The notes under the pieces were generated by a model. The model had not been told where the DNA came from. It was given only the letters and a program-made list of their open reading frames with translations, and searched no databases. Positions 343 to 59,767 of a DNA stretch of 64,000 nucleotides are shown here, one piece after another. The stretch is from Thermococcus sp. GTDB lineage: Archaea; Methanobacteriota_B; Thermococci; Thermococcales; Thermococcaceae. Both the position numbers and the translations under genes were made by a program. The stretch covers positions 1-64,000 of the forward strand of contig NZ_JALVUC010000010.1 of NCBI RefSeq assembly GCF_027023865.1, written 5' to 3'. Position 1 is the first letter of the stretch, and every line of letters begins with the position of its first letter.

Positions 343-414
343 CCTGGGATGGCGCGGGCCTTGAGAGCCCGTGTCCACTTGGACACCGGGGTTCAAATCC
401 CCGTCCCGGCGCCA
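328..414 (+). tRNA. tRNA-Ser (anticodon TGA)
   Basis: The acceptor arm GCCGGGA (328-334) pairs with TCCCGGC (404-410), followed by discriminator G and encoded CCA (412-414). The anticodon stem CGGGC/GCCCG holds the loop CTTGAGA, giving anticodon TGA. The variable arm GTGTCC-ACTT-GGACAC is long, as expected for Ser, and the T-arm is CGGGG TTCAAAT CCCCG. No intron is present. The 5' end overlaps the upstream methyltransferase CDS by 15 bases. Confidence 0.95.
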
Positions 415-449
415 AAATCCTCTAAGAAGGATGTGGAGGTGTATTCGCA

Positions 450-899
450 ATGACCGAGAATTTCAGACACATCGTCCGTGTGGCGGGTGTTGACCTTAAG
501 GGAGATAAGCAGCTGAGATGGGCCCTCACGGGCATTAGGGGTATAGGAATAAACTTCGCCACGATGGTGCTCAGAGTCGCTGGCATAGACCCGTATATGA
601 AGACTGGCTACCTGACTGACGAGCAGGTTAAGACAATAGAGAAAATCCTCGGGGACCCAGTTGCCCACGGTATTCCTGCTTGGGCAGTCAACAGACCGAA
701 GGACTACGGAACCGGTAAGGACATGCACTTTACTACCGCCAAGCTTGCCATGGCTTGGCGTGAGGATGTCAACAGGCTGAGGAGGATAAAGTCCTACCGT
801 GGCATAAGGCTCGAGCGCGGTCTGCCCGTTCGCGGCCAGAGGACGAGGTCGAACTTCAGGCACGGTAGTACACTCGGTGTCAGCAGAAGGAAGAAGTGA
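450..899 (+). CDS. rps13: 30S ribosomal protein S13
   Basis: The 149-aa product matches archaeal S13p/S18e in length and pattern. It has an N-terminal helix-two-turn-helix region ([20 protein letters not shown], about residues 27-46) and a basic C-terminal tail with [11 protein letters not shown]. It binds the head of the small subunit near the P site and contacts the tRNA and large subunit. It is the first gene of an S13-S4-S11-RpoD cluster transcribed together, starting 35 bases after the tRNA-Ser. The ATG follows the GGAGGTG ribosome binding site at 433-439. Confidence 0.97.
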
Positions 900-909
900 G
901 GTGATGTAA

Positions 910-1452
910 ATGGGAGACCCCAAGAGACAGAGAAAGATGTATGAGACTCCATCTCACCCGTGGATCAAGGAGAGGCTCGACCGTGAGAGAGTCCTCATGA
1001 AGAAGTATGCCCTCAAGAACAAGAAGGAGCTCTGGAGACACGAGACCCAGCTCAAGGAGTTCAGGAGAAGGGCTAGGAGACTCCTCGCCGCCCGTGGAAA
1101 GCAAGCTGAGATTGAGAGAGATCAGCTACTTCAGAGGCTCAGCAGACTTGGCCTCCTTCCTGCAGATGCGATGCTTGATGACGTTCTCTCGCTTGCCCTT
1201 GAGGACGTCCTTGATAGACGCCTCCAGACGATAGTCTTCAAGAGGGGCCTTGCTAGGACCATCGGGCAGGCTAGGCAGCTCATCGTCCATGGCCACATTG
1301 AGGTAAACGGTCAGGTTATCCGCTCTCCAGGTTATCTTGTCCTCAAAGAGGAGGAAGGGGTCATAACCTACTCGAGAAACTCTCCCTTTGCCAAGGAGAG
1401 CCACCCCGAGAGGATGGTTATTGAACAGGCCAAACAGGGTGGTGAAGCATGA
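910..1452 (+). CDS. rps4: 30S ribosomal protein S4
   Basis: The 180-aa product is archaeal S4p, a primary 16S rRNA-binding protein that nucleates assembly of the small-subunit body. The N-terminal part is highly basic ([22 protein letters not shown]). An S4 RNA-binding domain follows at about residues 104-165, with [21 protein letters not shown] inside it. The GAGGTG ribosome binding site (898-903) lies six bases before the ATG. The gene is 10 bases after rps13, and its stop codon overlaps the rps11 start (ATGA at 1449-1452), so translation of the two is probably coupled. Confidence 0.97.
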
Positions 1453-1898: not shown

Positions 1899-2681
1899 AT
1901 GGAGCCAAAATTCCGGATTCTTGAGAGAAGAGATGACTCGATTAAGTTCATCGTCGAGGGCATCGACGTTCCCTTTGCCAACGCCCTCAGGAGAACCATC
2001 CTCGCAGACGTTCCTACCTTTGCCGTTGACGAGGTCGAGTTCTTTGAGAACGGTTCTGCTCTCTTCGATGAGATAATCGCCCACAGGATAGGAATGATTC
2101 CACTCACCACTCCCATTGAGAGGTTTTCGCTTGATGCACTTGAACTCGATGATTACATCGTTACCCTCTCTCTGGAGGTTGAGGGTCCTGGGATGGTGTA
2201 CTCCGGCGACTTGAAGAGCAGCGATGCAGGTGTAAGGCCAGCCAATGAGGACATCCCGATAGTAAAGCTCGCCGAGGGACAGAAGCTTACACTCAACGCC
2301 TACGCAAAGCTCGGCCGAGGAAAAGATCACGCCAAGTGGCAGCCCGGCTTCGTATACTACAAATACCTCACGGAGATACACGTGAGCAAGGAAGTTCCGG
2401 GCTGGGAGGAACTCAAGGTCCTCGCCGAAAGACGCGGTCTGCCAATTGAGGAAACCGGAGAGGAGTTGGTCGTAACTACCACCAAGGCCTTCTACCTGCC
2501 GGGGAAGTTTGACGAGTACACCGGTGATAAGATACGTGAAGAGGTAATCCCCGGTTCGTTCGTCTTTACCGTGGAAACCAATGGTGAACTTCCCGTTGAG
2601 GAAATAGTGACCACAGCCCTTAAAATCCTTATGAGAAAGAGCGATAGATTTATAAACGAGCTTCATAAACTAGCCGACTGA
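1899..2681 (+). CDS. rpoD: DNA-directed RNA polymerase subunit D
   Basis: Subunit D is the archaeal equivalent of part of the bacterial alpha dimer. It pairs with subunit L to form the assembly platform of RNA polymerase. I chose the ATG at 1899 (MEPKFRIL) because GGTG at 1889-1892 sits six bases upstream. An in-frame ATG at 1893 and further upstream codons are alternatives. The N-terminal dimerisation domain contains [19 protein letters not shown]. The roughly 260-aa product contains no cysteine, so it lacks the Fe-S cluster ligands found in RpoD of some other archaea. It ends one base before the tRNA-Leu gene. Confidence 0.97.
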
Positions 2682-22690: not shown

Positions 22691-23725
22691 ATGCACGATG
22701 TCCCAATGGGTGAGATACTAAAAAAGCTCCGTGAGCTTAACGCTGAGAGGGTGCTCATCCAGACTCCCGAGGGGTTGAAGTCGGAGGCACAGGTACTCGC
22801 GGACTTCCTTGAGGAGAACGGGATATATGCGATAATAAGTGGGGACGTGAACTACGGTGCCTGCGATCCTGCCGATACCGAAGCGAAGAGGCTCGGTTGC
22901 GACGCGCTGATCCATCTCGGCCATAGCTACATGGCGCTCCACCTTGAGATTCCAACGATATTCGTCCCTGCCTTCGCGAAGGTCGACGTCGTTCCTGCCA
23001 TTGAGCAGAACATCGATGAAATCAAAAAGCTCGGGAGGAGGATTGCCCTCGTCACAACGACCCAGCACATCCACCAGCTTGAGAGGGCAAGAGCTTTCTT
23101 GGAGGGGAACGGTTTTGAAGTTCTCATCGGAAAAGGTGACTCCCGCGTCAGCTGGCCGGGGCAGGTTCTGGGATGCAACTTTAGTACCGCCAAGGTGGAC
23201 GCGGATGGTGTTCTCTTCATCGGTGCCGGCTACTTTCACCCTACAGGCGTTGCTATGACAGTTAAGAAACCTACCTTGGCAGTCAATCCCTACTCGGGCG
23301 ATGCGGTATGGATGGACAGAGAGGCCGAGAGGCTTATCAGGAAGCGCTGGGCGCAGATAGCGAAGGCGATAGACGCTCAGAGGTTTGGCGTAATCACGAG
23401 CACCAAGAAGGGTCAGCTCAGGCTCTCTGAGGCGAAGCGCATGGTGAAGCTCCTCCGCGAGCACGGGAAGTACGCCAAGCTCATCGCTATGAACCACGTA
23501 AATTATTTTGCTTTAGAAGGTTTCGACTTTGACGCTTACGTTGTGGTCGCCTGTCCCCGTGTCCCGGTAGATGACTACGAGAGCTGGAGGAAGCCGGTGC
23601 TTACTCCGAGGGAGGTGGAGATACTGCTCGGCCTGCACAATGAGTATGAGTTCGACGAAATAGTCGGTGTTGAGCGGGGGACGGATGAACCACTGGGGTT
23701 ATCATTAAAGGGACCTGTGACTTAA
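22691..23725 (+). CDS. dph2: Diphthamide synthase Dph2
   Basis: The 344-aa archaeal Dph2 is a non-classical radical SAM enzyme that adds the 3-amino-3-carboxypropyl group to a histidine of EF-2. Three cysteines that should hold the 4Fe-4S cluster are visible: GACDPADTEAKRLG (about residue 59), GQVLGCNFSTAK (about 163) and VVACPRVPVDDYESW (about 287). I chose ATG 22691 (MHDVPMGEIL) because GGTGGTGG precedes it. The segment 23492-23662 is duplicated without change at 25978-26148. Confidence 0.93.
   Translation: MHDVPMGEILKKLRELNAERVLIQTPEGLKSEAQVLADFLEENGIYAIISGDVNYGACDPADTEAKRLGCDALIHLGHSYMALHLEIPTIFVPAFAKVDVVPAIEQNIDEIKKLGRRIALVTTTQHIHQLERARAFLEGNGFEVLIGKGDSRVSWPGQVLGCNFSTAKVDADGVLFIGAGYFHPTGVAMTVKKPTLAVNPYSGDAVWMDREAERLIRKRWAQIAKAIDAQRFGVITSTKKGQLRLSEAKRMVKLLREHGKYAKLIAMNHVNYFALEGFDFDAYVVVACPRVPVDDYESWRKPVLTPREVEILLGLHNEYEFDEIVGVERGTDEPLGLSLKGPVT
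23492..23662 (+). repeat. 171-bp segment of dph2, identical to 25978-26148 (copy 1)
   Basis: This stretch of the dph2 3' region is base-for-base identical to 25978-26148 by direct reading (offset 2486). Homology continues on both sides but with clear divergence. Confidence 0.9.
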
Positions 23726-23796
23726 TTGATGAATATTTGGATTTTTTATCTAATCTCTGAATATTTCCCATGGGACTTTTCCTAATAATGGGAACA

Positions 23797-23804
23797 TATA
23801 TAAG
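23797..23804 (+). promoter_or_regulatory. TATA box for the HEAT-repeat gene
   Basis: TATATAAG is centred about 26 bases before ATG 23827. This placing implies a nearly leaderless transcript and supports that start. Confidence 0.5.
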
Positions 23805-23826
23805 TTCCTACTTCAAACACGCTGTG

Positions 23827-25605
23827 ATGACAACCGGAGAAAATATTGGCGGGCTTTTAGGGGAATATCTTTCCTCATGGGAGATAGATAAGGTTATTGA
23901 GTTGGCGCTGAGAGATGATGCCGCCCTGAGGGGACTCTTTAAGCTTCTCCACAGTCGTGATGACGAGATGAAACTTCGGGCATTGATGGCCATTGAAGGG
24001 GTTTTAGAGGCTTTACCTGAAGTTAAACGGCTCTTTCTTGTTCGTGAATTTCTTGATGACCTGATAAATGCTGCTAAAAGCGACAATGACGCGGTCTCAA
24101 TCCGTGCACTCAAGGCCATCGCTCTCCTCATCAACGGCATTCCCCTAGACCCCGGAACGTTTGTGGATTTGGGTCATGTTCTTAAAGACCTCGTGAAGTC
24201 TCGGAGAGAGGATGAGGTTCTCTTAGAGATTCCCCAAGTACTCAAAAATATGCGCGTCCTCTCCCCAAGCCCGCAGGTTCATGATGTCGTGGCTAGACTG
24301 CTCAGGTCTAAGAATCTACGGTTAAAGGCGATGGGTCTGCGCCTTCTCCTCAACGTGAGTGTGTATACCGGGGATCCATCCCTTCTTAAGGACATCTTCT
24401 CTGCTATCGGGGATATGCTGAGCGGAGAGCATGTCTCGCTGGCGGACTTTGCACTTGGTATCCTCCTTGAAATAGCTGAACATCCTCTTATTGAGGAAAT
24501 ACTAGATGACGTTGCGAGAACCTTGACCCTCGTGAAAAACCTGGCCCTGGGGAAGAACCCGGAGCTGGGGGAGAAGGCCCGCTTGGTGGCAGAGAAACTT
24601 GAGGACGCGATTTGCCGGTACTATAATGGAAGGCCTGAAAAGGCAAAGGAGAAGATAAACGAACTCCTGATAGAGGAGCGCTTCCATGAGGCAATCGACC
24701 TTGCACTGGCTGTCGGTGACACCTACATCCTGAAGTGGCTCGCGGAAGTCCTTAAGGAGATGGGAAAGGAAACCCTTAAGATAAACGAGCGCGTTCTCCC
24801 CGGGCTGAGGTACCCGTCTCTGCCCCCAGAGAAAAAGGCCCAGAGGTATCTGAAGCTGCCCTCCCTATCGCAGTTCAAAACATCGAGAAAGAGCGCCCTT
24901 GAGGTGGCGCTCAAAGAACCCCCCTTAGGTGGGGGTAAACTCACAAAGGTGGAGAGGGCTGAGCTGGAGCGTGCCCTTGAGTCAGGGAAAGAGGAGAAAC
25001 TCTTTGAATTATCGAAGGAAAGACCTGAAGTGGTGTTTGAACTGACCCACAAATTGGAGGTGGGTGATAAGTTTGAGAGGATGGATGCCCTTTGGGCGCT
25101 CTCAAAGCTCGCAGAGAAACTTGATGAGGAGAGAACGTTTATCCTAAAGCCTGCTGTGGGACCCTTGATAAGGATTACAAAATCCTCCAACCGCTGGGCG
25201 ACACTGAGGGCCACTAAAACGCTCGCAAAGCTGGCCTCCAAGGCTCCCTACGGGAACGAGATAGTTGGACACTTCCTTGAGGAATACATCTCCAATGAAG
25301 GCGATGGTGTCCTGCCATCCCTTGTGTTCTTCAGCTACTACTTTAGTGAGAGATGGGATGAAAAGACCGCCAGGGCGGTGCTCGCGAAACTCGGTGATTA
25401 CCTTAGGAGTGAGACTCTCTTCGACACCCTCCTCGTTCTCGATGCGCTTGTATCTTCGATCCCTCCTGAGAAGTTGCACCTCCTCAGACCCTTCGTTGAG
25501 AGACTGAAGGAGGTCAAAAAAATTGCCTCATCGGACGAGCAGAAGCTCGCCTTGAGAGTTCTTGAAGGAATAGCAGAGAGGTCCAAGGCCCTGGTCACTT
25601 CTTAG
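23827..25605 (+). CDS. HEAT-repeat protein
   Basis: The 592-aa soluble protein is built almost entirely of paired helices with HEAT-like spacing, for example LRALMAIEGVLEALPEVKRLFL, SIRALKAIALLINGIPL and MDALWALSKLAEKLDEERT. It has no membrane segment or catalytic motif, so a scaffold or protein-binding role is likely. An in-frame ATG at 23770 exists, but the TATA box lies downstream of it. Truncated relatives lie at 26653-26914 (fragment) and 29552-30507. The 3' end overlaps the convergent partner-gene relic. The specific function is unknown. Confidence 0.75.
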   Translation: MTTGENIGGLLGEYLSSWEIDKVIELALRDDAALRGLFKLLHSRDDEMKLRALMAIEGVLEALPEVKRLFLVREFLDDLINAAKSDNDAVSIRALKAIALLINGIPLDPGTFVDLGHVLKDLVKSRREDEVLLEIPQVLKNMRVLSPSPQVHDVVARLLRSKNLRLKAMGLRLLLNVSVYTGDPSLLKDIFSAIGDMLSGEHVSLADFALGILLEIAEHPLIEEILDDVARTLTLVKNLALGKNPELGEKARLVAEKLEDAICRYYNGRPEKAKEKINELLIEERFHEAIDLALAVGDTYILKWLAEVLKEMGKETLKINERVLPGLRYPSLPPEKKAQRYLKLPSLSQFKTSRKSALEVALKEPPLGGGKLTKVERAELERALESGKEEKLFELSKERPEVVFELTHKLEVGDKFERMDALWALSKLAEKLDEERTFILKPAVGPLIRITKSSNRWATLRATKTLAKLASKAPYGNEIVGHFLEEYISNEGDGVLPSLVFFSYYFSERWDEKTARAVLAKLGDYLRSETLFDTLLVLDALVSSIPPEKLHLLRPFVERLKEVKKIASSDEQKLALRVLEGIAERSKALVTS

Positions 25606-25890
25606 ACAGGAGTTTTATTGCCCTTATGACGTCTGCACAGGTCTTGATTTTAATACCGGGGCTTTCTCATCGGATACTCCCTGGAGCATTATGGCGAGAA
25701 TCTCGTACCGAGCCTTGAGGACTTCGAGTATCTTCTCTGCAATAGCCCCCACCCACGTAGTTTTTATGGCCTTTAGGAGGCCTTCCTCGCTCTCCTCTTT
25801 GACTCTCAGGTGGAGCTCCTCACCAAGATCTGAAGGAACATTAAAACCACGGGCGATGGGTGTGGAGCGCTTTGGCGTAATCACGAGCAC
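25595..25890 (-). pseudogene. Relic of the KaiC-partner gene
   Basis: Minus-strand coding similarity to the gene at 26912-27472 is clear: EELHLRVKEESEEGLLKAI then WVGAIAEKILEVLKARYEILAIMLQ. The C-terminal tail is KIKTCADVIRAIKLLSKK after a one-base shift near 25640-25660. The N-terminal half is missing. About 35 codons are lost between two similar M-L-Q/T-L-Q segments, consistent with deletion between short repeats. It ends convergently inside the HEAT gene 3' end, the same arrangement as the longer copy. No function can remain. Confidence 0.7.
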
Positions 25891-26217
25891 CGAGAAGGGT
25901 CAGCTTCGATTGGCCGAGGCGGGGAGGATCGTGGGACTTCTTTGCGAGGGCGGATGTACGTCAAACTTATAACCATAAACCACGTAAATTATTTTGCTTT
26001 AGAAGGTTTCGACTTTGACGCTTACGTTGTGGTCGCCTGTCCCCGTGTCCCGGTAGATGACTACGAGAGCTGGAGGAAGCCGGTGCTTACTCCGAGGGAG
26101 GTGGAGATACTGCTCGGCCTGCACAATGAGTATGAGTTCGACGAAATACTTGATGTTGATCGAAAGGTTGATGAGCCCTTAAAGGTGTCCGTTCATGGCG
26201 TTAAGGATTCTCTTTGA
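25859..26217 (+). pseudogene. Partial second copy of dph2 (3' end)
   Basis: This encodes the last 120 or so residues of a Dph2: RFGVITSTEKGQLRLAEAG, then after a one-base shift near 25945 KLITINHVNYFALEGFDFDA, and so on to DEPLKVSVHGVKDSL. The first 120 bases and the last 60 are diverged from the intact dph2, but the middle 171 bases are identical. The 5' two-thirds of the gene are absent and the frame is broken, so it is non-functional. It abuts the partner-gene relic on the left and overlaps the membrane-protein start on the right. Confidence 0.85.
25978..26148 (+). repeat. 171-bp segment of dph2, identical to 23492-23662 (copy 2)
   Basis: Second copy of the perfect repeat, inside the dph2 relic. 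The perfect core within diverged flanks points to recent gene conversion rather than simple recent duplication. Confidence 0.9.
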
Positions 26218-26575
26218 GATTCTGGAGTTCATTTTCCTCACCCTTTCCGCTTACTGGGGCCTTAAAGAGGCCGCGGAAACCCTTACTTACGTCCGTCTGC
26301 GCGGACTGCTTTTGCTACTGCCGCCCCTACTCGTGGTGACCTTTAAATACGGTGGTTTCTTGGCTTCGTTCGTCCTCGTGATGCTCTTCTTCCTCCTTGA
26401 GAGAACTGGAATTGTGTTATCTCTGATGGCTTCGATCTTCGCATTCACTCTGTTTTTAATAGGTGCAATGGCGAGCACGATAGCCCTTGGAGTGCTGGGA
26501 ACCGCGCTCCATGTTTCCGGATACGAAATGCAGGGCACCCTTCAGGAGCTGCTTCACAGGGCAGTGATGAGGTGA
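26195..26575 (+). CDS. Small membrane protein, unknown function
   Basis: The 126-aa hydrophobic protein has about four membrane segments: [48 protein letters not shown] and SIFAFTLFLIGAMASTIALGVLG. A short soluble tail follows. I do not recognise a family. The frame is intact, unlike its surroundings. It overlaps the end of the dph2 relic by 23 bases and the start of the methyltransferase relic by a few bases, suggesting an old dph2-membrane protein-methyltransferase operon. Confidence 0.65.
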   Translation: MALRILFEILEFIFLTLSAYWGLKEAAETLTYVRLRGLLLLLPPLLVVTFKYGGFLASFVLVMLFFLLERTGIVLSLMASIFAFTLFLIGAMASTIALGVLGTALHVSGYEMQGTLQELLHRAVMR

Positions 26576-26645
26576 GGCGTAAGCACCTCGTGATGATCCT
26601 TCCCGGACTGAAGGACTTCCAGGAGTCTAAGCCGGAGCTGGGAGT
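26571..26645 (+). pseudogene. Relic of the 5' end of the METTL5-like methyltransferase gene
   Basis: The frame from GTG 26571 reads RRKHLVMILPGLKDFQESKPEL. It matches the start of the intact methyltransferase at 28876 (MKKKHLAMILSKLRGF...RPEL) in the conserved K-H-L, M-I-L and P-E-L positions, and AAGCACCTCG is shared exactly. Similarity ends at about 26645, where HEAT-gene sequence begins. It is a gene fragment of about 25 codons with no function expected. Confidence 0.6.
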
Positions 26646-26652
26646 GCCCTAC

Positions 26653-26914
26653 AATTGGAGGTGGGTGATAAGTTTGAGAGGATGGATGCCCTTTGAGCGC
26701 TCTCAAAGCTCATCTTGAAGGCCCCTCATGGTGGCGGTATCCTGTTATCCCTAGAGTTCTTCGGTGGACGGGATGAGAAGGCTACCGGGGTGGTGCTTGC
26801 AAAGCCTCAGGTTACTGGAAGGCTGAAAGGGGTCAAAAAACTACCTCATCGGACGAGCAGAATCTAGTTCTGGGATCCTTGAGGGGATAACTAGGAAATC
26901 CAAGGCCATGGTCA
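26653..26914 (+). pseudogene. Relic of the HEAT-repeat gene 3' end
   Basis: Bases 26653-26711 match 25052-25110 of the HEAT gene with a single difference. That difference turns TGG (Trp) into TGA at 26693-26695. Further on, 26830-26860 and 26880-26920 match the last 100 bases of the HEAT gene (TCAAAAAA...CCTCATCGGACGAGCAGAA and TCCAAGGCC...GGTCACTTCTTAG). The middle is degraded by deletions. It overlaps the partner-gene 3' end convergently, as in the intact cassette. Confidence 0.8.
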
Positions 26915-27472
26915 CTTCTTAGCGAGAAGTTCTATCGCCTTTATCGCGTCCTCCCCGGTCCTTATCCTGATGCCGAGACCCCTCTCGTCGGCTATCTTCT
27001 GGAGCATTGCCTTCGTCGGGAACTCGCCACATATTTTACGAGGATTTCGTAGATCCCTTCGGGGTCAGTCTCCTCTGAGATGTCCTCCATCGCCCCCTCA
27101 AGGCTCTGGAGCGTTATGCTGAGGAAGTCATACTTCACTTTGAGGACTTCGAGTATCCTCTCGGCCATATTACCCACCCACATAGCTTTTCAGGGTATCT
27201 AAAAGGCCCTCCTCACTCTCCTCCTCAACGCTCAAGTGAAGCTCCCTAACCAGGGTCTGAAGGAACATTAAAGCCGCGAACTCCCCGAAAAGGTTCTTGA
27301 CTGCATTGTAGAAGAGCTCTGGGTCATCATCGGCCAGTTCTATGCCCTCCCTGTACTTGGCTTTCAGGTATGCCTCCACTGTGACAAGGAAGTGAGAGCC
27401 AAACTTGCTGAGAAGCTCCTTGGCGGTCGCCACCACCATCCCCCTGTTTATCTCGGAGGGAAGTTCACTCAA
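26912..27472 (-). pseudogene. KaiC-partner helical protein, two frameshifts
   Basis: With two single-base corrections this is a 186-aa mostly helical protein. The first part is MSELPSEINRGMVVATAKELL...ELHLSVEEESEEGLLDTLKSYVGG (27472 to about 27176). Then NMAERILEVLKVKYDFLSITLQSLEGAMEDISEETDPEGIYEILVKY follows after one extra G. Then CGEFPTKAMLQKIADERGLGIRIRTGEDAIKAIELLAKK follows after one missing base near 27020. I do not recognise a family. Its start overlaps the end of the double-KaiC gene by 8 bases, so the two were co-translated partners. Confidence 0.72.
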
Positions 27473-40624: not shown

Positions 40625-41251
40625 ATGATAATATTCGCGGGACGCTCAAACGTTGGGAAGAGTACTCTCATATTCCGCCTGACCGGGAAGTGGGTGAAGC
40701 GTGGGAAGAGACCAGGGGTAACGAGAAAACCTATGGAGGTCAACTGGAGAGGGAGGACGGTAGTCGACCTGCCGGGCTTTGGCTTTATGAGCGGCGTTCC
40801 GAAAAGGGTTCAGGAGAGGATTAAGGACGAGATAGTTCACTTCATCGAGGACAACGCGGATGAGATAGAGTTGGCAGTTCTGGTTGTGGACGGAAAAGCG
40901 GCCCCAGAGATAATCGAGCGCTGGGAGAGGAGGGGGGAGATACCTGTAGACGTTGAGTTCTACGGGTTCCTACGGGAGCTGGGCATACCAACGGTGGTAG
41001 CTGTTAACAAGCTGGACAAGATAAAGAACCCTGAGAGGACAATGAACTTCCTTGCCGAGAAGTTCGGTGTTCCTTACTCCGAAATCGATGAGACCTTTGT
41101 GCCGATATCGGCAAAGTTCGGAAAGAATCTTGACGTACTAAGGGTGCTCATAGAGCGGAAGATGCGGGAAAAGAAGGGAAAACCGGAGGAGAATTCAAAG
41201 GACCTCGAGGACAATGTGGGTGATGGTCTCCTTGACGCCATCGAGGGATGA
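40625..41251 (+). CDS. engB: GTP-binding protein EngB
   Basis: The 208-aa protein is a TrmE-Era-EngA-EngB-Septin-like GTPase of the EngB/YihA family, involved in ribosome assembly. G1 is GRSNVGKST (residues 6-14), switch I contains RPGVTRKPMEV, G3 is DLPGFGFMSG, G4 is NKLDKI and G5 is PISAKFGKN. The ATG at 40625 is preceded by CCGGTGAG. The frame upstream is open without start-site support. The 3' end overlaps the convergent regulator gene by 57 bases. Confidence 0.92.
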   Translation: MIIFAGRSNVGKSTLIFRLTGKWVKRGKRPGVTRKPMEVNWRGRTVVDLPGFGFMSGVPKRVQERIKDEIVHFIEDNADEIELAVLVVDGKAAPEIIERWERRGEIPVDVEFYGFLRELGIPTVVAVNKLDKIKNPERTMNFLAEKFGVPYSEIDETFVPISAKFGKNLDVLRVLIERKMREKKGKPEENSKDLEDNVGDGLLDAIEG

Positions 41252-47429: not shown

Positions 47430-47507
47430 GCCCGGGTGGTGTAGCCCGGCCCATCATACGGGACTGTCACTCCCGTGACCCGGGTTCAAATCCCGGCCCG
47501 GGCGCCA
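47430..47507 (+). tRNA. tRNA-Asp (anticodon GTC)
   Basis: The acceptor GCCCGGG (47430-47436) pairs with CCCGGGC (47497-47503), followed by G and encoded CCA. The loop CTGTCAC gives anticodon GTC. It directly follows 5S rRNA and is probably on the same transcript. A hairpin of the palindromic repeat starts 7 bases after its CCA. Confidence 0.95.
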
Positions 47508-47513
47508 CACTCA

Positions 47514-48256
47514 CAAACTTCGCCTTCGTGAAGTTTGATCAAGGTTTGCATGTCACTTTTAGAAATTCCCAGTTTTGGGAAGGGTTTGCTCTTTCACTTG
47601 TAGGGTTACAGTGTTTCACTGTTAGAATAACACCCTCCGGGTGTTAAGGGGAAGTTGAAACCTTTTTTAGATTGCGTTTTCAGGTGCAAACCCGCTTTGA
47701 GCTTGCGACTTGAGGAGACATGCAAACTCATTCTTGAATTTTTCGGGAAGTTCGCCCTTTGATCAAAAACCTTGTACTGCAAAGTTTGCTTGCTTCGCAA
47801 AGCGCTGATGGAAAGATCGCGTACCTTCTGAAAAACTCAAATTCTCGAGGGGTTTACTCCTCAATTGCCAGTTCTTGAGCGTTTGGTCTTCTCAAGACGC
47901 CCGAAGGGCGCCAGAATAAAGTGCAAGATCTGTTTAAGGACTTCGTTTAGAGGTAATCCCCAAAACTGCACCGGGATATTGAAACGTGCACACCGGTGCT
48001 ATACACTTGTAGTAGATCAAGGGTTATGATTCTTGTTTGAAAGCTCGTTATGGTGGGATTTTCAATTGGAATTGCTTTTTGGATTGTGGATTCCTTATCG
48101 GGAGTGTTTTCAAGTGAGTTCGAGTTTTTAGCGCTCCAACGGAGCGCGGTAAGAGTGAACCCTTTCAAGAGTCCCTCCCGCAAAAATTCACCCTCATTTT
48201 GGCATCTCAAAAAAGAACTACCAACTTTGATGAAACTTTTGCCGAGCAAAAGTTTC
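47514..48256. repeat. Palindromic non-coding repeat block, about two to three units
   Basis: This 743-bp gene-free block fills the gap between the 3' ends of two tRNA genes. Its left end is a hairpin CAAACTTC/GAAGTTTG (47514-47537) followed by ATCAAGG. Its right end is a hairpin GAAACTTTTGC/GCAAAAGTTTC (48232-48256) preceded by TTTGAT. Internal hairpins are AACACCC/GGGTGTT (47629-47645), GCGCCC-like at 47895-47904 and GCGCTCC/GGAGCGC (48131-48147). The right unit shares GCATCTCAAAAA, GAAC and TTTGAT blocks with the repeat at 59315-59611. No credible ORF is present. Small open frames here lack conserved features. Confidence 0.75.
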
Positions 48257-48259
48257 TTA

Positions 48260-48336
48260 TGGAGCCCCGGGCGGGGTTTGAACCCGCGGCCTGCCGCTTA
48301 CCAAGCGGCCGCTCCGCCAGGCTGAGCCACCGGGGC
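48260..48336 (-). tRNA. tRNA-Thr (anticodon GGT)
   Basis: On the minus strand the acceptor GCCCCGG (48336-48330) pairs with CCGGGGC, followed by T and encoded CCA (48262-48260). The loop TTGGTAA between GCCGC and GCGGC gives anticodon GGT. The terminal hairpin of the palindromic repeat ends 3 bases beyond its CCA. Confidence 0.95.
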
Positions 48337-58980: not shown

Positions 58981-59295
58981 ATGGAGTATGTGTATGCCGC
59001 TCTGCTGCTCCACGCTGCTGGTAAGGAGATAACCGAAGAGAACCTTAAGGCCGTTCTTGAGGCCGCTGGTGTTAGCGTCGACGAAGCAAGGATTAAGGCC
59101 CTCGTTGCAGCCCTTGATGGCGTCAACATCGACGAGGTCATTGAGAAGGCCGCTATGCCGGTTGCCGCCCCGGTTGCCGTTGCAGCCACTCCGGTTGCCG
59201 AGGCCCCGGCTGAGGCTGCTGAGGAAGAGGAGGAAGAAGAGGAAGAGGAGAAGGAAGAGGAGGCTCTCGCCGGTCTCGGCGCCCTCTTCGGCTGA
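58981..59295 (+). CDS. rpl12: 50S ribosomal protein L12 (P1)
   Basis: The 104-aa acidic protein has the N-terminal dimerisation domain [31 protein letters not shown], an Ala/Pro/Val-rich hinge (about residues 60-80), a run of glutamates and the conserved LAGLGALFG tail that recruits translation factors. The GGAGGTGCAAAAA site precedes the ATG. The 77-base gap after rpl10 is AT-rich. The gene ends 20 bases before the palindromic repeat next to tRNA-Arg. Confidence 0.96.
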
Positions 59296-59314
59296 ACCCT
59301 CTTCCCTTTTCTTT

Positions 59315-59611
59315 CAAACTTTGCTTTGCAAAGTTTGATCAAAGTTTGTGGTTCCTCTTAACTCTCCAGTTTGAGAGGGGTTCCTTTGAAAACGCTGGAT
59401 CTAATCCTGAATTCCGCTTTATTGGTTTGCGTTTTAACGGGAGTTCAATTTTAACCGACGCCCTCCGGGCGTCAAAGGATGGGAACTCTTTGAGTGGAGC
59501 ATTAATGAAGGAATTCACACCTAAGACAGCTCGTAAAAGAGAATCCCATTGTGCCTTAGCATCTCAAAAAGAACCACGAGCCTTGATCAAACTTCGCGCA
59601 GGTGAAGTTTG
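59315..59611. repeat. 297-bp palindromic non-coding repeat
   Basis: The left hairpin CAAACTTTGC/GCAAAGTTTG (59315-59337) is followed by ATCAAAGTTTGTGGTTC. The right hairpin CAAACTTC/GAAGTTTG (59588-59611) is preceded by GAACCACGAGCCTTGAT. These ends are inverted repeats of each other. A central hairpin GACGCCC/GGGCGTC lies at 59457-59473. No ORF of note is present. The right tip lies 5 bases from the CCA of tRNA-Arg. It is related to the block at 47514-48256. Confidence 0.82.
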
Positions 59612-59616
59612 TTTTC

Positions 59617-59692
59617 TGGCGGGCCCGGCGGGATTCGAACCCGCGGATACCGGCTCCGAAGGCCGGCGCCATGTCCCCTAGGCTACGGGCCC
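59617..59692 (-). tRNA. tRNA-Arg (anticodon TCG)
   Basis: On the minus strand the acceptor GGGCCCG (59692-59686) pairs with CGGGCCC, followed by G and encoded CCA (59619-59617). The loop CTTCGGA between GCCGGC and GCCGGT gives anticodon TCG. The T-arm is GCGGG TTCGAAT CCCGC. It is convergent with rpl12 and separated from it by the palindromic repeat. Confidence 0.94.
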
Positions 59693-59767
59693 ACGGGGGT
59701 AGTTAACCTAGGTCTTTACATAAAGGTTACGGTGAGAAATGAATCCAAGACTGAAAGAGAGAAAAAG

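Follow-up and report, generated by a model that had tools for sequence, protein, structure and literature searches.

A structured foldback repeat docking mostly at gene 3' ends in the Thermococcaceae

Eukaryotes are well known to harbour mobile elements that dock next to tRNA genes. Casposons, which create duplications of about 14-15 nt, use tRNA ends. For archaea, the passages of PMC3119063 that concern SMR-A of Haloquadratum walsbyi describe a repeat of about 110 bp that targets other mobile elements. In Thermococcus, according to the parts of PMC5495485 that treat chromosome inversions, inversion endpoints lie within tRNA gene pairs, and an integrase test for inversion at the tRNA-Leu/tRNA-Thr pair failed. 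Here we analyse a foldback repeat that stands beside a Thermococcus tRNA gene. It belongs to a real and widespread family of structured repeats whose docking is unusually exact and occurs mostly at gene 3' ends. This docking, which a preliminary description of the repeat did not include, is the key feature of the family.

The element in the window and the fold of its family

The window, that is the entire 64,000-nt stretch of Thermococcus sp. DNA analysed, carries a complete unit at 59315-59611. The sequence and the coordinates are as first described: a 297-nt quasi-palindrome with hairpins at both ends and in the centre and an arm identity of 0.60. On one side lies the end, at 59295, of an acidic ribosomal protein gene (L12/P1; 58981-59295, plus strand; Pfam PF00428, 66.3 bits). 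On the other, after a gap of 5 nt, follows the 3' end of tRNA-Arg(TCG) (59617-59692, minus strand), which was identified by tRNA call and Rfam. The inverted arms 59328-59359 and 59566-59597 measure 32 nt and are 81% complementary. Inverted-arm comparison also delimits the long-range stem, whose left arm (...GTGGTTCC..., 59338-59359, plus strand; helix 2 of alignment A3, see below) faces a right arm at 59566-59587 (plus strand; covariation in A3). The central hairpin GACGCCC-tcc-GGGCGTC, already recognised in the preliminary description, was located at 59457-59473 (plus strand) and corresponds to helix 7 of A3.

Folding of 59310-59615 was far better than that of shuffled sequences on both strands (z -6.3 on the plus and -6.4 on the minus strand; 0/100 shuffles as good). 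Together with the compensatory changes reported below, this bears out the proposal that the whole unit could fold back as one long structure. The short tRNA-proximal hairpin folded alone was no better than shuffles (z 0.15). Four open reading frames of at least 60 aa overlap the unit mechanically; all have TTG starts and none is gene-like, in keeping with the earlier statement that no gene explains the sequence. When 59250-59700 was searched with Rfam 15 covariance models, the tRNA alone scored above cut-off and the element had no match. Below threshold, the tRNA (59619-59692) gave matches to plastid UTR and mascRNA models, which we take as tRNA-like or chance similarity.

To place this unit among its relatives, the 3' flanks of the tRNA genes of the window's genome were read (45 Rfam matches, plus the tRNA-Trp of locus L112 as the 46th gene). 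Hairpins begin 1-6 nt past the tRNA end and belong to one of a few types: A (CAAACTT...AAGTTTGATCAA), B (GAAACTT...AAAGTTTCATCAA) and C (CAGCCCTT...AAGCGCTGGCGGAA). Two end models, R1 for A/B ends and R2 for C ends, were searched in eight genomes. They were built from 22 and 11 tRNA-proximal ends, respectively, so that proximal ends score highest by construction. Both terminal hairpins of the window's unit are of type A. The tRNA-proximal one (CAAACTT...AAGTTTG; 59588-59611, minus strand), which starts 5 nt past the tRNA-Arg 3' end, lies in an R1 match at 59567-59611 (58.1 bits), and the distal one (59315-59337, plus strand) in a match at 59315-59358 (52.8 bits). At four other loci (L056 at 1409-1495, L081, L089 and L091), type A ends hold extra nested hairpins within the loop, which gives a branched end.

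A second copy in the window is an array of units, defined by R1/R2 matches, that fills the gap between the convergent genes for tRNA-Asp (47430-47507) and tRNA-Thr (48260-48336). It spans 47514-48256, its first unit 47514-47788, and its proximal ends lie at 47514-47558 (plus strand) and 48211-48256 (minus strand). Its tRNA-proximal hairpins folded alone were better than shuffles (z -2.2 and -3.7). All ten R1 matches within the window fall in the element or in this array; R2 contributed two more, a weak one in the array and another at position 40657 (13.1 bits). Unit and array thus belong to one family, as had been proposed, since the array ends match the same model. The internal blocks said to be common to both fared less well: GCATCTCAAAAA occurs at 48202 and 59559, but the window has a single copy of AACTCTTTGAG, and all four copies of GAATTCAC fall outside the array. 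The repeated blocks at 23384-27278 (293 nt at 88% and 59 nt at 98%), presumably the TnpB region, contain no R1/R2 match, in agreement with the claim that the element is unrelated to the TnpB element ends.

Candidate units were then defined as pairs of outward ends 200-345 nt apart. This gave 60 candidates, some of them overlapping, and 31 of the 60 are 290-312 nt long. We oriented 26 and aligned 23 of them (alignment A3), with one unit trimmed by 11 nt; those with the lowest joining scores (L017:1621-1921, L076:1580-1882 and L088:1190-1486) were left out. The structure model, a long hairpin with terminal and central hairpins, was read from A3 itself, which inflates the percentage of paired cells: 87.4% versus 81.7 +/- 0.6 in column shuffles (0/500). 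Pairing fell to 51-53% when the partner was shifted by one column. Cells changed on both sides numbered 70 versus 34.9 +/- 4.8 in column shuffles (0/500). There was no excess of pairs with a double change (16 versus 13.4 shuffled, 69/500) or of further pair types (48 versus 47.5 shuffled, 246/500).

As a stricter control, whole 3' arms were swapped between 19 units thinned to <70% identity. Four of the six helices (45-52/306-313, 117-120/237-240, the central and the terminal one) beat all 1000 swaps, and two (38-44/314-320 and 157-161/206-210) did not. Compensatory pairs in the long-range stem include GTGGTTC/GAACCAC, GTAGCTC/GAGCTAC and GTGATTC/GAATCAC across units, and the central hairpin reads GCGCTCC/GGAGCGC in some units. 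These changes support a predicted long hairpin. Since compensation can also come about when template-switch repair copies one arm of a palindrome into its partner, they speak for maintained pairing and do not imply that RNA is the active form. The preliminary description had staked its reading on copies in related genomes and on compensatory base changes; copies are abundant, compensation exceeds that in column shuffles, and four of six helices surpass every arm swap.

Docking behind tRNA genes and at other sites

A similarity search of the window's genome with the element DNA returned seven places. At six of them a tRNA gene was called; the last, L006, lies at a contig edge and opens within the 3' end of a tRNA. 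A model-supported end follows 21 of the 46 tRNA genes, a degenerate end was recognised by eye at 5 more, and about 20 have none. To quantify docking in four genomes, we used the best 150 of 275 end matches, namely 80 of 181 for R1 and 70 of 94 for R2 (about E 1e-4 or better), and called a match abutting if it lay 15 nt or less from a tRNA 3' end on the same strand. The 80 R1 matches are those of the four genomes among the 150 R1 matches listed for all eight. Of these best 150 in the four genomes, 61 are in direct contact with a tRNA 3' end, another 53 stand no more than 1.5 kb downstream of one, and the other 36 are elsewhere; the 1.5-kb tRNA 3' flanks together make up at most about 3.5% of the genome. 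Counted per genome among the same matches, 19/45, 16/44, 8/44 and 18/44 tRNA genes have an abutting match. Contigs C2, C5 and C24 of the window's draft genome stop within or just past a tRNA gene, which is expected if arrays break the assembly.

To see what lies beside the 36 matches elsewhere, 19 loci covering 33 of them were fetched; one of the remaining three is at a contig edge behind a truncated tRNA, and two are in a second locus set (L140 and L141). The 19 loci comprise 6 intron-bearing or truncated tRNAs, 2 box C/D sR36 genes, 2 CRISPR repeats, 1 RNA-like sequence, 4 protein-gene ends or junctions and 4 unclassified sites (L109, L116, L117 and L122). The six tRNA loci, missed at first, are intron-bearing Trp and Met genes and a tRNA-Ile 3' fragment, recognised by Rfam (L112, L118) or by eye (L107, L114, L123, L124). 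The tRNA-Ile 3' piece (L107, about 325-373) has a B-type end directly behind it, and is possibly a relic of the integration of an element that displaced the original 3' half of the tRNA along with its repeat.

Non-tRNA genes are used as well. At L113 and L125 the end abuts the box C/D sRNA sR36, and the other end of L113 stands behind a second C/D-like RNA that scores below the Rfam cut-off. CRISPR repeats were identified at L121 (1518-1600; array by Rfam) and L119 (1980-2072; by the repeat sequence beside the unit). The C-type end at both begins inside what looks like a CRISPR repeat, in L121 at the array end. Among protein genes, a stop codon precedes the hairpin at L110 and L120 and also the other end of L119, whereas the hairpin of L108 and L111 is turned toward the start of the following gene.

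At L115 the end lies behind a conserved RNA-like sequence that has two GC-rich stems and is not matched by any Rfam family. This sequence (GCCCGACGAGTAT.GGGTTGCGATGACGTCGGGACCCCCAGGGGG...CCCCC) was met in four genomes, at L115 (about 2405-2480, minus strand), L133 (about 982-1060, minus strand), L137 (about 390-468, plus strand) and L140 (about 541-620, minus strand), and in 4/4 an element end follows directly, the end types differing. It may be an unnamed small RNA; its assignment as an H/ACA RNA was dropped, as Rfam gave no support.

The second set consisted of 20 loci picked, not at random, from R1/R2 matches. Nine have a called tRNA, L131 lies behind an intron-bearing tRNA-Met recognised by eye, L133, L137 and L140 are the RNA-like site just described, and L129 is unclassified. 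L139 has an upstream sequence in common with L109, L117 and L122. This sequence might be a short transcript, but the alignment of L109, L117 and L122 also fits an outward-facing promoter region, so these loci were left unclassified. A weak match inside 23S rRNA (L134) was taken as chance. By eye, L132, L136, L141 and L144 lie just 5' of a gene start, which argues against a strict 3'-end rule. At L132, L136 and L141, in three genomes, the end is a C variant (GAGCCCTTT...AAAGCGCTCGCGGAA) behind an apparent ribosome-binding site.

In a control at E 0.01, R1 and R2 gave 0 and 0 matches in 12 loci, namely 11 surrounding 5S genes that lack a tRNA call and a tRNA-Ala(TGC) locus. Thus, not every stable RNA gene is a target, and an association with any stable RNA whatever its kind was rejected.

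Spread, turnover and possible origins

Among the matches listed in an L10 scan, 2 of 14 loci (L033, L034) were Thermococci; the L10 protein of L033, a Thermococcus MAG, shows 92% identity, and we take the family to be Thermococcaceae on this basis. With stricter filters, 76 of its 94 genomes had R1 ends and 18 had none. By genus, they occur in 58/61 (g1), 3/3 (g8), 0/9 (g9), 7/13 (g10), 7/7 (g11) and 1/1 (g12) genomes. R1 misses genomes with C ends only; in G003, for example, which has no R1 match, a tRNA-Val gene carries a C end. G019, of the same genus as the window's genome, has no R1 match and one poor R2 match. Most copies are strongly divergent in sequence, and few insertions are therefore demonstrably recent.

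Turnover is visible at a single tRNA. A survey of tRNA-Arg(TCG) in 41 genomes returned 30 loci (L047-L076), whose 3' ends carry an A/B end in 14 (6 A, 8 B), a C end in 5, a degenerate end recognised by eye in 5, a D-like repeat in 2 and none in 4. The end type thus changes between species at one orthologous site. At L060, L067 and L069, a GC-rich tRNA-adjacent repeat of another type (AACGAAAGACAAGGGGG...) has the same docking point.

Filled and empty sites were found at two protein genes. A unit occupies the cbf5 3' end in 5/9 genomes of genus g10, and this site is empty in 4/9. At the junction, TGGTA is followed by GAAAC in four filled genomes and by GAACC in G092, so that the element's first base completes the stop codon. 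We saw no target duplication by eye. In G085, G086, G088 and G089 the native cbf5 3' UTR of roughly 25 nt is mostly gone; in G092 the sequence past the unit differs. The unit of G085 is only 49-54% identical to the other four, which share 70-94% with each other, so that dissimilar units stand at the same base. The same picture would arise from independent insertion and from an exchange of units at one fixed point. In the window's genome, a C-type unit follows the cbf5 stop directly (L110). In g11/g12, gcvT is filled in 2/8 genomes (a unit with a worn far end in G103 and a short remnant in G101) and empty in 6/8.

On balance, the units are probably a family of about 300-nt, non-autonomous, hairpin-ended foldback elements of MITE or SMR-like kind, with a strong preference for gene 3' ends. 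A unit would be excised or copied and then inserted directly behind a gene 3' end by enzymes acting in trans. Small stable-RNA genes (tRNA, box C/D sRNA, CRISPR arrays) would be the preferred targets, and protein-gene ends and gene junctions the rarer ones. The terminal hairpins (A, B, C and others) would mark the ends, while the whole unit would be kept as a long imperfect hairpin. Repeated insertion at one docking point, nesting and recombination between copies would then produce the tRNA 3' arrays and exchange between species. Copy number, docking position, the structure with its compensatory changes, filled and empty sites, dissimilar units at one base and turnover at an orthologous tRNA are observed; targeted, enzymatic insertion by a mobiliser in trans, with tRNA 3' ends serving as havens, is what we infer. 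Against the foldback-element explanation stand the lack of an autonomous relative or transposase, the 0/80 tRNA-end duplications and a 293-nt identity that runs past a unit (both below), the cbf5 insertions with no duplication by eye, the sites at gene starts and the divergence that leaves few insertions demonstrably recent.

A more far-reaching version, to which we give limited credence, would make the family a new class of mobile elements. Its insertion machinery would read the 3' end of the mature gene product (the tRNA CCA end, the box C/D end, the CRISPR repeat or the stop codon), perhaps coupled to transcription or RNA. It would have colonised the small-RNA genes of most genomes of the family and would supply arrays for chromosome rearrangement.

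The units could instead be a portable 3'-end signal, that is a bidirectional RNA element (terminator, processing signal or protective trailer) selected behind small RNA genes and spreading by replacing native 3' ends. Precise docking and the structure-preserving compensatory changes would suit such a signal, as would the largely vanished cbf5 3' UTR of filled genomes and the T-rich peak that each end type shows at about 42 nt. However, a run of T4+ is not or only weakly enriched over shuffled ends (A 8/31, 0.26 vs 0.25; B 20/42, 0.48 vs 0.37; C 16/30, 0.53 vs 0.32). A signal of this kind also fits poorly with the 18/94 genomes that have no R1 ends, with G019 and its one poor R2 match, and with the roughly 20/46 tRNAs of the window's genome that have no end. 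We regard it as unlikely. A pure transcription-terminator reading was abandoned, the T-run enrichment being too weak for a claim.

Alternatively, tRNA 3' flanks might be swapped as modules by homologous or integrase-driven recombination, the repeats spreading passively by gene conversion and inversion. Shared flanks point in this direction. The first 293 nt of the tRNA-Asp array (47514-48256) are 100% identical to the tRNA-Arg(TCT) 3' flank, and the flanks of tRNA-Arg(CCG) and tRNA-Leu(TAG) share 191 nt at 99% identity. The 293-nt identity extends past the unit end, which suggests recombination and not clean transposition. In addition, 21 of the 30 loci have an L12 gene no farther than 1.5 kb from tRNA-Arg(TCG), 3' of the tRNA in 11 of them and 5' of it in 10. 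With L12 on either side, the tRNA plus its array seems to flip in place, as judged from gene order. Several of the convergent tRNA gaps that we read contain such arrays, which makes them candidates for the recombining sequence in the Thermococcus inversions; the endpoints of these in tRNA gene pairs, as given in the inversion part of PMC5495485, would agree with swapped modules. But such swapping leaves the cbf5 and gcvT stop-codon units with empty sites in relatives unexplained, and likewise the box C/D and CRISPR sites. As an account of the whole family we consider it distinctly doubtful.

Flanking duplications bring up a miniature casposon-like element, in which a Cas1-type integrase would place the unit near tRNA 3' ends and CRISPR repeats and duplicate about 15 nt there. 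Docking at both kinds of site would fit, as would three short C-type copies, situated at the ends or junctions of genes, that are flanked by direct repeats: 17 nt at L108, 16-17 nt with one mismatch at L111 and 15 nt at L120. The L111 repeat could be coincidence because part of it is a ribosome-binding site and start codon. However, these are 3 of 34 C-type matches, and at the 45 B and 32 A matches we found no comparable flanking repeat except one inside an array (L115); all three match counts include overlapping loci. There was likewise no repeat of the tRNA end of 11 nt or more within 1.2 kb on the far side in any of 80 tRNA rows, and the cbf5 insertions have no duplication by eye, so the three repeats may reflect another type of event. 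A casposon-like origin is very improbable. The 0/80 result also led us to reject an att-site reading by a tyrosine integrase.

The search for a mobiliser was otherwise negative. We found no autonomous relative and no convincing coding sequence in a unit. Plasmid and phage records contained no DNA similar to the element, and one 25-base pattern had no match in viral contigs; a 15-base C-end pattern was searched in 2.9 million viral contigs, where chance matches are expected. It is hardly credible that the units are PATE-like IS200/IS605 derivatives mobilised at their end hairpins by a Y1 transposase: they share near-terminal palindromes, no apparent coding capacity and the usual lack of target duplication with PATEs as portrayed in the relevant passages of PMC3119063, but have inverted termini, which PATEs lack there, and Y1_Tnp (PF01797) shows no association with R1 carriage (20/76 R1-positive versus 5/18 R1-negative genomes).

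Comparison with known systems

In the open-access literature searched we found no description of this repeat family; such absence is weak evidence. To our knowledge, it would be new for a tiny archaeal foldback repeat to dock directly behind small RNA genes of several classes. The family offers another, testable explanation for the Thermococcus inversions associated with tRNA genes and a natural assay of how the cell marks the 3' end of a gene.

Casposons resemble the units in their tRNA 3'-end preference and in duplications of about 15 nt. However, neither cas1 nor polB would fit into so short a unit, and most copies have no duplication. MITEs and foldback elements are non-autonomous and multi-copy, have inverted ends and leave filled and empty sites, as the units do. 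By the usual description of a MITE, the unit is short, non-coding and multi-copy with terminal inverted repeats. It differs in that no parent transposon was found, docking is mostly at gene 3' ends and target duplication is mostly not seen.

Integration by tyrosine integrases, with pTN3 as an example in the sections of PMC5495485 that deal with it, also targets tRNA genes in Thermococcus, whereas here there is no far-side copy of the tRNA 3' end and no integrase gene in the unit, and many tRNAs as well as non-tRNA genes are used. PATEs, as the pertinent part of PMC3119063 presents them, are likewise short, with near-terminal palindromes and without a transposase gene. Yet they are kin of IS605-type elements without terminal inverted repeats, while our units have inverted arms and Y1 does not track the family. 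SMR-A, in the same partial account (PMC3119063), shares general traits with the units: both are short repeats of archaea that have terminal inverted repeats and a strong target preference and carry no transposase gene, and SMR-A shows no target duplication, as do most copies here. Here, the units measure about 300 nt (31/60 pairs 290-312 nt), fold back along their whole length and dock at gene 3' ends. The family thus resembles a MITE or SMR-A, the latter as far as that account (PMC3119063) describes it, and has the full set of defining features of neither. The foldback repeat looks like an undescribed, sharply targeted mobile repeat.
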